Both the position numbers and the translations under genes were made by a program. A stretch of DNA of 64,000 nucleotides from NCBI GenBank assembly GCA_024742285.1, contig JANSYR010000004.1:372001-436000 (forward strand). The letters run 5' to 3'. The notes beneath the pieces were generated by a model. It made no database searches. It saw only the letters and a list, made by a program, of their open reading frames with translations, and was not told the origin of the DNA. The DNA comes from a bacterium. Lineage in GTDB: Bacteria; Myxococcota_A; UBA9160; UBA4427. Position 1 is the stretch's first letter; every line of letters begins with the position of its first letter. Of the stretch, positions 2,405 to 43,364 are shown piece after piece.

Positions 2405-3064
2405 GTGAACGTGAGCGGAGTCGCGGCAGGCGCGCTGAAGCGCGTGATCCTCGTACGTCACGGGGAGACCGCCGGGCAGTCGAGCATCCGGTACTACGGA
2501 GCGACCGACGTGCCCTTGTCGGACGAGGGTCGCGCCCAGGTGCGCGCCGCCCGCGACCGGATCCGGGGCGAGACCTTCGACGCGGTCTGGGCGAGCACGC
2601 TCTGTCGCTCCTGGGAGTCGGCGCGAATCGTCGCGCCCGGCCATCCGGTCCAGCTCGAGTCGAATTTCCGCGAGATCGACTTCGGCGACTGGGAAGGACT
2701 GACCGCCGAGGAGATCGCCGAGGTCGATCCGGCGGGCTACGCGCGCTGGCAGGCGGAGGGGCTCGACTTCACCTTTCCCGGTGGCGAGCCACGGGATGTG
2801 CTTCGTGCGCGCGTCGGCCGCGGCCTCGAACGCATCCACGCCACCGGCGTCGAGTCCGTCCTGGTCGCCGTCCACAAGGGGGTGGTTCGCGCGCTCCTGG
2901 AGCTGATCACCGGCTACACCCTGCCCCCGGGCGAGCCCGAGCTCGGAGGCGTCGTCCAGGCAAGCCGCGGCCCCGACGGGTCCTGGTATACGGGTCGGAT
3001 CGGAAGCGACGCGAGCGTGAGCGAGGTCGGGACCGGGGTCCCGATGGACGAAGGCCGGGGCTAG
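2405..3064 (+). CDS. Histidine phosphatase family protein
   Basis: The 219-residue protein belongs to the phosphoglycerate mutase-like superfamily. It has the catalytic LVRHGE near residue 19, the acidic-face motif FREIDFGDWEG, and the second catalytic His in VAVHKG. It resembles CobC/PhoE/GpmB-type phosphatases and not true glycolytic mutases, because the mutase-specific insertions are absent. A GTG at 2405 is taken as the start, and a second in-frame GTG lies two codons later. The substrate cannot be determined from sequence. The last 25 residues are not conserved-looking. Confidence 0.85.
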   Translation: MNVSGVAAGALKRVILVRHGETAGQSSIRYYGATDVPLSDEGRAQVRAARDRIRGETFDAVWASTLCRSWESARIVAPGHPVQLESNFREIDFGDWEGLTAEEIAEVDPAGYARWQAEGLDFTFPGGEPRDVLRARVGRGLERIHATGVESVLVAVHKGVVRALLELITGYTLPPGEPELGGVVQASRGPDGSWYTGRIGSDASVSEVGTGVPMDEGRG

Positions 3065-3091
3065 GTCTCTCGGCGGGCCGATTCGGGGCGT

Positions 3092-4459
3092 TCAGAGCAC
3101 CCCGTACGCGAGCATCGCGTCCGCGACCTTGATGAACCCGCCGATGTTCGCGCCGCGGACGTAGTTGACGTAGTCGCCGTCTCGGCCGTGCTCGACGCAG
3201 GTCGAGTGGATGCTCTTCATGATGTCGAGGAGCTGCTCGTCGACCTGCTCGCGCGACCACGAGAGGCGCATCGCGTTCTGCGTCTGCTCGAGTCCGGAGA
3301 CCGCGACACCGCCGGCATTGGCCGCCTTCGCGGGCCCGAAGAGGACCTCGTTCCTCAGGAAGACGTTGATCGCGTCGAAGGTCGACGGCATGTTCGCGCC
3401 TTCCGAGACGAGCTGGCAGCCGTTCTTGACGAGCTCGTCCGCATCCTCGGAGTGGAGCTCGTTCTGGGTGGCGCAGGGAAAGGCCAGTTCGCAGGGCACG
3501 CCCCAGGGCCGCTTGCCCTCGTGGAAGGTGCCGCCCCACTTCTCGACGTACTCGCTGATCCGGCCGCGCCGCTCGTTCTTGAGATCCATCACCCAGGCGA
3601 GCTTCTCTTCGTCGATCCCGTTCGGGTCGTGGATGAAGCCGCCCGAGTCCGAGAGCGTGAGGACCTTGCCCCCGAGCTGGTTGATCTTCTCCGCGGTGTA
3701 CTGGGCGACGTTGCCCGATCCCGAGACGACGCAGTTCTTGCCGGCGATGTCCTCGCCTCGGGTGCCGAGCATCTCTCGCGCGAAGTAGACGCAGCCGTAG
3801 CCGGTCGCTTCGGTTCGAATCAGTGAGCCGCCGAAGGCGAGTCCCTTGCCGGTGATCGTGCCGGTGAACTCGTTCTGCAGGCGTTTGTACTGACCGAAGA
3901 GGTAGGAGACCTCTCGGGCGCCGACGCCGATGTCGCCGGCCGGGATGTCGGTGTAGGGCCCGATGTGGCGGGAGAGCTCGGTCATGAAGGCCTGGCAGAA
4001 GCGCATGACCTCGCCGTCGCTCTTGCCGTGGGGGTTGAAGTTCGCCCCGCCCTTCGCCCCGCCCATCGGCAGGGTCGTGAGCGAGTTCTTAAACACCTGC
4101 TCGAAGCCCAGGAACTTCAGGATCGAGATGTTCACGCTCTTGTGGAAGCGCAGACCACCCTTGTAGGGGCCGATCGCGTTGTTGAACTGCACGCGCATGC
4201 CGCGGTTCACACGCACGTTCTCGTCGTCGTCGACCCAGCAGACGCGGAATACGATGATCCGATCCGGCTCCGTCATTCGATCGAGGATGTGCGCGTCCTT
4301 GTAGGCCTGCTTGTCCTCGAGAAACGGGATGATGTCTCGGGCGACTTCGTGGACGGCTTGCTGGAACTCCGGCTGGCCGGGATTCCGGCGCTCGAGCCCG
4401 TGCATGAACCGCTCGAGGTAGGTGTCCGCCGCCGCCTGCTGCTTCTTGGTCAGAGCCAT
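3092..4459 (-). CDS. gdhA: NADP-type glutamate dehydrogenase
   Basis: This enzyme interconverts 2-oxoglutarate plus ammonia and glutamate. The 455-residue length is typical of hexameric NADP-dependent GDH. It has the substrate-binding lysine region KGGLRFH, the catalytic-lysine motif PMGGAKGGANFNP, the DIPAGDIGVGAREV segment, and a Rossmann domain containing VSGSGNVAQY. It is the last of three minus-strand genes (pepP, acs, gdhA), 25 bp after acs, so acetate activation and ammonium assimilation may be co-transcribed. Confidence 0.97.
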   Translation of the reverse strand: MALTKKQQAAADTYLERFMHGLERRNPGQPEFQQAVHEVARDIIPFLEDKQAYKDAHILDRMTEPDRIIVFRVCWVDDDENVRVNRGMRVQFNNAIGPYKGGLRFHKSVNISILKFLGFEQVFKNSLTTLPMGGAKGGANFNPHGKSDGEVMRFCQAFMTELSRHIGPYTDIPAGDIGVGAREVSYLFGQYKRLQNEFTGTITGKGLAFGGSLIRTEATGYGCVYFAREMLGTRGEDIAGKNCVVSGSGNVAQYTAEKINQLGGKVLTLSDSGGFIHDPNGIDEEKLAWVMDLKNERRGRISEYVEKWGGTFHEGKRPWGVPCELAFPCATQNELHSEDADELVKNGCQLVSEGANMPSTFDAINVFLRNEVLFGPAKAANAGGVAVSGLEQTQNAMRLSWSREQVDEQLLDIMKSIHSTCVEHGRDGDYVNYVRGANIGGFIKVADAMLAYGVL

Positions 4460-41187: not shown

Positions 41188-41216
41188 AGCATACGAGATT
41201 CCACTGCAATACCCAA
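41188..41216 (-). promoter_or_regulatory. Possible promoter of the alpha/beta hydrolase gene
   Basis: On the minus strand TTGGGT (41216-41211) and TATGCT (41193-41188) are 17 bp apart, with transcription likely near 41181, 87 bp before the hydrolase start. The -35 match is only moderate. Confidence 0.4.
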
Positions 41217-41401
41217 CGTTTGGCGCGACTCGCGAGACTTGACTCCATGTTCATGAAGGCGCGTGCGAACGAAGAACAAACGGTGGTTGGGGAACGAACG
41301 TCTCGCCAGCCGGTCGAAATCGGGAGGCTCGTGGTCGTTTCGGGGCCGTTTCCGGAAACGCTCGATTTCGGCAAGGAGAGGGCGAATGGCGGCGTTTTCG
41401 A

Positions 41402-41429
41402 TTGACAGGAATCGCGAAACGTTTATGAT
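41402..41429 (+). promoter_or_regulatory. Sigma-70 promoter of the histone gene
   Basis: TTGACA (41402-41407), a 16-bp spacer and TATGAT (41424-41429) form a near-consensus promoter. Transcription would begin near 41436 and give a leader of about 160 bases before the histone ATG at 41597. The strong match fits the high expression expected of a chromatin protein. Confidence 0.75.
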
Positions 41430-41596
41430 CGCGCCGTTTGACGGGGTTTCCCGGCCGAACGCGTTTATCTGGGGGAGTCAGACGAATCGGTTCGACCCGC
41501 AGTGGGTTCGTTCCAGGGTTCGCTGGCGGAACGCGAAGCGAGACGAAGGCGCAAGCTCTCGATCGACTTCGCTTCGACGAGTGAGAGGAAGCCAAC

Positions 41597-41809
41597 ATGG
41601 CAGCCAAGAAGAAGAAGAAGGCAGCGAAGAAGGGCAAGCCCGCCGAGCTCATCATCTCGAAGGCTCGGGTGAAGGCCGCGGTCAAGAAGTGCAACGTGGG
41701 CGGTGAGTTCTACGGTGCGCTCGACGCGGCGGTCCGCGACCTGATCAAGGAAGCGGAAGGCCGAGCCCAGGGCAACAAGCGCAAGACGCTGAAGGCCGTC
41801 GACCTCTAG
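41597..41809 (+). CDS. Bacterial histone-fold protein with lysine-rich N-terminal tail
   Basis: The 70-residue protein has a lysine-rich tail (residues 1-14, ten Lys) followed by a histone fold: helix 1 about 18-31, helix 2 about 36-57, then RKTLKAVDL (62-70). That last stretch matches the archaeal histone motif RKTIKAED. R62 and D69 keep the spacing of the histone Arg-Asp clamp, and the RKT triad is intact. Helix 3 is nearly absent, as in short bacterial histones such as the Bdellovibrio type. It should bind DNA as a dimer and help organise the nucleoid. GAGAGGAAG precedes the ATG. The gene has its own promoter and terminator. Confidence 0.85.
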   Translation: MAAKKKKKAAKKGKPAELIISKARVKAAVKKCNVGGEFYGALDAAVRDLIKEAEGRAQGNKRKTLKAVDL

Positions 41810-42081
41810 CTTTCGAGGTCACCCGTTGTTCATCCGCGTTGCTTCGTGGGGGACAGCGCAGCCCAGGGCGATCGAGCTTCCTGGGCAATTCGACCTCGAT
41901 GAATGCGAGAGAGACGGTGCTCTTGAGCTGCAGTACGGATGCCGTCGTTGCCTCCCCGAGGCGACGCTGGCGGCCGGCCCCCCGGTTGTTTTCGAACCCC
42001 CGGAGACTGCGTTTCGGCTCGAGGGTTGCCTGACTGCCGATCGATCCGGCGCGACGCGGTCGCGATCGGATCTGGCCAAAG
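41810..42081 (+). other. Histone mRNA 3' region
   Basis: This stretch of about 270 bp lies between the histone stop and its terminator. A plus-strand frame runs through it from 41826, but it continues antisense into the DUF6178 gene and looks accidental. No strong hairpin was seen before the terminator. Confidence 0.35.
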
Positions 42082-42112
42082 AAAAGGCCCGCTGCGCTGC
42101 AGCGGGCCTTTT
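42082..42112. terminator. Bidirectional intrinsic terminator
   Basis: AAAAGGCCCGCTGC (42082-42095) pairs perfectly with GCAGCGGGCCTTTT (42099-42112) around a GCT loop. It gives a U-tract in both directions, so it ends both the histone transcript and the convergent DUF6178 transcript. Confidence 0.92.
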
Positions 42113-42143
42113 CGTTTCCGGCGCCCGGGGGAGCGCAACGGCC

Positions 42144-43364
42144 CTAGTGGACGGTGGCATCCTCGTTCGGCGAAGCGTCGTCCTCGTCTTCCTCGTCTTC
42201 GGTGATCGAAGTGGGGAGCGCAGCCTCGCGGTCGAGATTGGTGCCGACCCGGAAGAGACGCTCGAGGGGAACGCGGCGAAGCGTCTCCTCGAGAGAGAGG
42301 CCGTTCTCCCCGGCGACGTGTTCGAGTCCGTCGCTGGCGAAGCGCGTCGCCTTGTCGATGGCGCCCGGCAGGGATTCCGGATCGCCGAGCTCCATCCGGT
42401 CGGCGACGGCGATCCGGTTCGAGAGCGCGATCAGCCCGTAGAAGACGGCGCTTCGCTCGTCGGCGGTGAGCTCGCGGGTCGCGCGGAAGAGCGCGCGCTC
42501 GTCGCTCGCGATCCCGGGGAGCTCGGTGATCCAGACTGGCAGCGCCCAGCTCGCCAGGTCGAGGGCCTTCGTCTCGGCCGGAACGGTCGTCATCGCCTCC
42601 GGTCGCATGAACCCGTAGATGCGCATCGACGCGTCCCACGACGGGAAGCCCAGATCTTCCAGGCGGCCCGTTCTCCAGCGAAGGGCCCACTCCTCGTTCT
42701 CCGTCTGCAGCTCTTCCTTCACGGCCTGGATCACGCGGAAGTAGAGCCAGTAGTCGCCCTGGAAGAGCGAGTGGAGCAGGCTGAGCATCGGCGCGAGGTC
42801 GTCCTTCGGGTCCTTCGCGACGAAGTAGAACTGTCCTTCGAGGGTCTGCCCACCGTCCGGCGGCTGCCAGTCCGGGTCCTCCTGCTCGCTCGGCTTGAGG
42901 TGGACGTCGACGTGGTTGCGCAGGTAGATGACGAGCATCTCCGGGTCGACGGCGCGGGCGGCACGCAGGAGCGTCTCGTCTTCGGCGGAGGCGAGCGCCG
43001 CGACCCATCCGTCGAGCCGCGTGGGGTCGATCGTCAGGCCGGCCCAGGCGTCGAGGTCGAAGCTCGTGACGATCTGGGCGTCCGTCGCCATCGGCAGCAG
43101 CCAGCTCGCGTCGTCGAGGCCGATCGAGCGGCACGTGTACGTGAACTCGGCTTCGGGGATGAGCGGAATCACGTCTTCCGGGCTGGGGAGCAGCTCGATC
43201 ACCTGGCGGCGGATCGAGAGCGGTGCTTCGCAGACGACGGTCGCCTGTTGCTCGGCCGGAAGCGACGCGAGCGCGCGCTCCGCTTCGCGCCGGTCGTCTC
43301 GGGCCAGCTTGAGGAGGCGGCGCGCCTCCGGCACGAATGCGCGGGGGAGGTCCATGGCGCGCAC
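42144..43364 (-). CDS. DUF6178 family protein
   Basis: The 406-residue soluble protein has a helical N-terminal part (PEARRLLKLARDDRREAERAL, then ALPAEQQATVV-like repeats), a central part with LVIYLRNHVDVHLKPSEQED and FYFVAKDPKDD, and a conserved-looking C-terminus ending in LERLFRVGTNLDREA before an acidic tail. This matches my recollection of the uncharacterised DUF6178 family from deltaproteobacteria. No enzymatic motif is seen. GTG 43364 or the ATG three codons later may be the start. It is convergent with the histone gene. Confidence 0.7.
   Translation of the reverse strand: MRAMDLPRAFVPEARRLLKLARDDRREAERALASLPAEQQATVVCEAPLSIRRQVIELLPSPEDVIPLIPEAEFTYTCRSIGLDDASWLLPMATDAQIVTSFDLDAWAGLTIDPTRLDGWVAALASAEDETLLRAARAVDPEMLVIYLRNHVDVHLKPSEQEDPDWQPPDGGQTLEGQFYFVAKDPKDDLAPMLSLLHSLFQGDYWLYFRVIQAVKEELQTENEEWALRWRTGRLEDLGFPSWDASMRIYGFMRPEAMTTVPAETKALDLASWALPVWITELPGIASDERALFRATRELTADERSAVFYGLIALSNRIAVADRMELGDPESLPGAIDKATRFASDGLEHVAGENGLSLEETLRRVPLERLFRVGTNLDREAALPTSITEDEEDEDDASPNEDATVH

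Follow-up and report, generated by a model that had tools for sequence, protein, structure and literature searches.

A face-to-face-type histone with a basic N-terminal tail, conserved in a class of uncultured Myxococcota-type bacteria

Background

Only a handful of bacterial histones have been investigated, and the main case of the face-to-face (FtF) kind is Leptospira, which has no HU and in which the histone has been proposed as a stand-in for HU (PMC12701072). A stretch of bacterial DNA of 64,000 nucleotides, the whole of which is hereafter referred to as the window, encodes a small protein described in an earlier note, from the letters alone, as a histone with a lysine-rich tail, a strong promoter and a terminator of its own. 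The locus raises the question of whether its product is a true histone and, if so, to which of the known kinds it belongs and what roles its tail and its expression signals are likely to have. As judged from its sequence, the product is a genuine bacterial histone and belongs to the FtF kind, which is known from earlier work. The distribution of the family, the predicted structure, the tail, the expression signals and the HU-family complement of the source genome were examined in support of this assignment and of the probable biological role of the protein.

Results and discussion

Occurrence of the histone and status of the gene

The 70-residue reading frame reported earlier was confirmed, together with a ribosome-binding site (Table 1). 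Relatives of the histone are encoded in 58 of 60 related genomes. Within the class of uncultured Myxococcota-type bacteria they occur in 83 of 90 genomes (42 of the 42 good ones), normally as one copy each, and the reading frame is therefore regarded as real and not a product of chance. The two closest relatives differ from the coding sequence of the window by synonymous changes only (seven of seven at third codon positions) or by none.

In the rest of the phylum a distant match was obtained in just 23 of 287 sampled genomes. Those relatives that carry a name bear the titles Deltaproteobacteria, Myxococcota and Myxococcales; others were identified in Planctomycetota, Latescibacterota, Methylomirabilota, Krumholzibacteriia and others. 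The source genome was found to carry no second histone, the viral contigs searched yielded no relatives, and a literature search under the label UBA9160 returned no paper connecting the group with histones. One lineage of the same order carries a covalent doublet of about 125 residues, in which two near-identical FtF cores are fused in tandem and hardly any of the basic tail is left.

Table 1. Coordinates of the features at and around the histone locus (positions in the window unless a genome or locus label is given)
Feature	Position	Strand	Basis or remark
Upstream element AACGCTCGATTTCGGC	41357-41372	+	similar distance in most relatives
Promoter TTGACA-N16-TATGAT	41402-41429	+	11 of 12 consensus positions; 0.1 in shuffles
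5' leader, about 160 nt	41436-41596	+	start inferred from the -10 box
Ribosome-binding site GAGAGGA	41583-41589	+	sequence
FtF-type histone gene (70 aa, MAAKKKKKAAKKGKPAELIISKARVKAAVKKCNVGGEFYGALDAAVRDLIKEAEGRAQGNKRKTLKAVDL)	41597-41809, stop included	+
Basic tail, residues 1-17 (MAAKKKKKAAKKGKPAE, 8 Lys)	41597-41647	+	pLDDT 49-60
Alpha-1, residues 22-32	41660-41692	+	model
Alpha-2, residues 37-59, bearing R56 of the putative FtF interface	41705-41773	+	model; R56 invariant
N60, loop 2 RKT (62-64), R62-D69 clamp, one-turn alpha-3 (67-69)	41774-41806	+	invariance and model
Perfect 15-bp hairpin, probable bidirectional terminator	42081-42113		z -7.4 and -7.9 on the two strands
DUF6178 gene, convergent with the histone gene	42144-43364	-	would share the terminator
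IHF-beta and IHF-alpha genes	G000:C23:33815-34084 and G000:C2:394935-395204		curated models
Doublet histone loci	L078 about 2800-3180; L113 1309-1734	L113: -

Family assignment

Searches of the whole genome with Pfam, NCBIfam and PF00808 gave nothing above cut-off, a result that could misleadingly suggest that there is no histone. The window protein has no match to the Pfam models DUF1931 and CBFD_NFYB_HMF, and the best members of its family reach E-values of about 0.007-0.009, which fall short of the curated cut-off. Standard Pfam models overlook this family, so that surveys relying on them may under-count bacterial histones.

Comparison with proteins of solved structure was more informative. 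The window protein alone matched 9F2C with an E-value of 3.8e-5 and 9QT0 weakly, while a profile of 49 sequences matched the two with E-values of 1.5e-8 and 1.9e-4, respectively. Both are FtF tetrameric histones, 9F2C being HTkC of Thermococcus kodakarensis (as described in PMC11390915) and 9QT0 being HLp of Leptospira perolatii (PMC12701072). HBb (Bd0055) of Bdellovibrio was not recovered by the sequence search.

The RKTLKAVD motif with R62 and D69, pointed out earlier, is present in the sequence. The counterparts of R48, N52, R54, T56 and D61 of the FtF profile are R56, N60, R62, T64 and D69, none of which varies in 49 relatives; K63 is invariant as well. K22, R24 and K26, likewise invariant in the 49 relatives, and K30 of the window protein are the predicted basic residues of alpha-1 for DNA, of which R24, K26 and K30 match K15, K17 and K21, the residues with which HLp binds DNA (9QT0 alignment; PMC12701072). 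The FtF kind is formally defined by a tetramer (torus) in which dimers join on both sides; we infer the tetramer itself from homology and a few residues.

Predicted structure and the possibility of a dimeric histone

An AlphaFold2 (AF2) model computed on a 40-row alignment, one row with ambiguous bases having been left out, reached a pLDDT of 74.9 and a pTM of 0.49. It was preferred to a single-sequence model, which showed a poor long helix and a pLDDT of 60. The alignment-based model keeps the histone fold and reduces the third helix, described earlier as nearly absent, to a single turn, as is characteristic of FtF histones. In the Foldseek search 9f2c, 9qt1 and 9qt0 came first, followed by HBb and then by eukaryotic histones; no E-value was below 0.001, which is to be expected of a protein of this small size. 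In VIA-align the FtF chains reached Z scores of 5.8, 5.8 and 5.6 and HBb one of 5.4, a tie within 1 that does not separate the two groups. The histone fold claimed in the earlier note, which had also proposed a structural comparison with Bd0055, is thus upheld by the profile matches, the AF2 model and the Foldseek and VIA comparisons, with HBb ranking behind the FtF structures in the fold search.

The alternative that survives best, though it appears quite unlikely, is that the protein belongs with the 'bacterial dimer' histones such as HBb/Bd0055 and works as a dimer in bending or coating DNA. It would account for the minimal fold, the RKT loop and the short alpha-3, and the nearness of the HBb structures in rank and Z score noted above is in its favour. 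However, the R48/N52 pair is missing from bacterial dimer histones such as HBb in the account given by PMC11390915, whereas its equivalents R56 and N60 are present in all 49 relatives, and the profile matches with E-values below 0.001 among the bacterial and archaeal short histones were to FtF structures only. HBb-type histones are therefore placed in a neighbouring group and not as the closest one. The likeness to the Bdellovibrio protein suggested earlier stands inasmuch as both are short histones, but it probably extends to a neighbouring subgroup, the nearest solved relatives being the FtF tetramers HTkC and HLp.

The basic N-terminal tail

Ten lysines had been counted earlier in the first 14 residues; there are eight (K4-8, K11, K12 and K14). 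Among 75 distinct relatives the stretch preceding the fold ranges from 9 to 22 residues and is always net positive, with Lys predominating and Arg substituting freely. The tail is basic in every singlet relative, with basic residues being fewer in relatives from other phyla. M1 alone is invariant in the tail of the 49-row alignment, which contains no invariant Lys, although the 14 closest relatives retain K6 and K7. Since no tail lysine is invariant, Lys and Arg interchange and the length varies, charge rather than particular lysines looks to be selected. The tail accordingly appears closer to a charged, disordered arm for contacting DNA than to an array of modification sites at fixed positions.

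These observations weaken the earlier suggestion that the tail is a regulatory acetylation target switching compaction as in eukaryotic histones, which seems marginally less probable than a dimeric histone. The density of lysines in the first 14 residues and the disorder of the segment in the model are compatible with such a role, but lysine sites kept at particular positions, as in eukaryotes, were not found; the exchange of Lys for Arg, the variable length and the sparser basic residues in other phyla argue against it, and no dedicated modifying enzyme was seen adjoining the histone gene. The earlier remark that a tail like this seems little studied needs correction, as positively charged N-terminal tails on bacterial FtF histones have already been described in PMC11390915.

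Expression signals and gene neighbourhood

The near-consensus promoter reported earlier is conserved in relatives. Sites with at least 10 of 12 consensus positions at a spacing of exactly 16 bases are present in 27 of 82 distinct upstream regions, compared with 0.2 in dinucleotide shuffles, and the adjacent spacings yielded between none (14 and 15 bases) and five (17 bases). A T-run immediately 5' of the -35 box also recurs in relatives. The upstream element takes the class form (A)AGTGCCGAAATCGGC and lies about 30-45 bases 5' of the -35 box. This block is partly palindromic, with GCCGAAATCGGC in many relatives across the class, and is a possible candidate site for a regulator.

The leader has the length stated earlier. 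A structured regulatory leader was considered and rejected, the whole leader folding no better than shuffles (z -0.57). A short hairpin followed by GGGGG is located near the inferred transcription start (41430-41480); it recurs in many relatives, where the stems have changed and still pair, but its advantage over shuffles is small (mean z -1.1 in relatives). All Rfam matches in 41200-42200 were below gathering scores and fell mostly on the terminator hairpin.

The perfect hairpin taken in the earlier note for a bidirectional terminator was likewise recovered, with a 15-bp stem on both strands, and is probably such a terminator. It is situated about 270 nt past the histone stop, in the gap shared with the DUF6178 gene, and is kept in the closest relatives; a simple terminator scan reported no site, probably owing to its T-run rule. 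The histone gene is flanked by an alpha/beta hydrolase gene and the DUF6178 gene, both of which can be aligned in many relatives. The pairing of histone and DUF6178 genes is kept in many relatives and is seen beside the doublet histone as well. Strong, independent transcription is supported, at the level of sequence, by the class-wide conservation of the promoter and by the terminator. The 'high, independent expression' proposed earlier thus holds for transcription as a signal in the sequence, from which we infer high expression itself.

Probable role in the nucleoid

Two HU-family genes were identified in the source genome (95.3% complete), and curated models assign them above cut-off to IHF-beta and IHF-alpha. 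No HU was found in this genome, as neither gene reaches the cut-offs of the HU models. Exactly two HU-family genes are present in 46 of 52 genomes of the class as against at least three in 26 of 30 other genomes of the phylum, a comparison that ignores relatedness and in which subfamilies were assigned in the source genome only. This contrast suggests that the histone may stand in for HU.

The protein is probably a general nucleoid organiser of the FtF kind. Two chains would form a handshake dimer, and two such dimers, in contact on both of their sides, would give a ring-shaped tetramer, by analogy with the solved FtF histones; the contacts would be made by loop 2, the end of alpha-2 and the short alpha-3 (R56, N60 and R62). 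The tetramer would bind DNA irrespective of its sequence, using the basic residues of alpha-1 and both loops, and may wrap about 60 bp of it, as HLp does (PMC12701072). The disordered 17-residue tail, rich in Lys and Ala, would contribute further charge contacts of a non-specific nature, either with the wrapped DNA or with DNA nearby. The histone is probably abundant and probably takes the place that HU occupies elsewhere among bacteria.

A wider proposal is put forward tentatively, namely that throughout the class the tailed tetrameric histone and IHF replace HU as the main bulk chromatin protein, forming beads of about 60 bp that would resemble nucleosomes, with the basic tail adjusting how they pack. 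The least probable reading is that of a specialised factor with a histone fold that acts at a small number of loci and not in bulk, for although IHF-alpha and IHF-beta could do much of the DNA bending, it sits poorly with a near-consensus promoter, a terminator of its own and a class-wide core gene, and with the non-specific DNA binding of HLp and HBb (PMC12701072, PMC11317129).

Comparison with known histones

HLp (PDB 9QT0-9QT2, PMC12701072) shares with the window histone its length, fold, one-turn alpha-3, RD clamp, alpha-1 basic residues and a short N-terminal extension, and its R49, N53 and R55 correspond to R56, N60 and R62. The two proteins are about 29% identical and differ in the second loop (RTT in HLp, RKT here); the window histone is further distinguished by a strongly K-rich tail and by IHF in the same genome. 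HTkC (PDB 9F2C, PMC11390915), a tetramer in the crystal, is the best match in both sequence and Foldseek searches and has the RKT loop. Its 59-residue chain lacks a basic tail and has E at the position of the invariant N60, and it comes from an organism, T. kodakarensis, that also has nucleosomal histones. RKT is kept in the family described here, whereas the FtF profile presented in PMC11390915 does not conserve it strongly. HBb/Bd0055 of Bdellovibrio bacteriovorus (PDB 8CMP, 8FVX; PMC11317129, PMC10627809) has the same minimal fold, RKT-type loop and short alpha-3, but is a dimer of the group without the R/N interface residues and carries no lysine-rich tail.

The tailed bacterial FtF histones of PMC11390915 have similarly positive N-terminal tails, and FtF histones are recorded there from Myxococcota and Planctomycetota among others; the main text of that paper contains no discussion of the present class or of its gene context, promoter or HU absence. 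The histone is thus of a published kind, and what is added here is its universality in the class (42 of 42 good genomes), the conserved promoter with 16-bp spacing, and the presence of IHF without HU in the source genome. The class adds a lineage in which a tailed histone is universal and normally single-copy and HU is apparently missing, and it therefore offers a test of the replacement of HU by histones.
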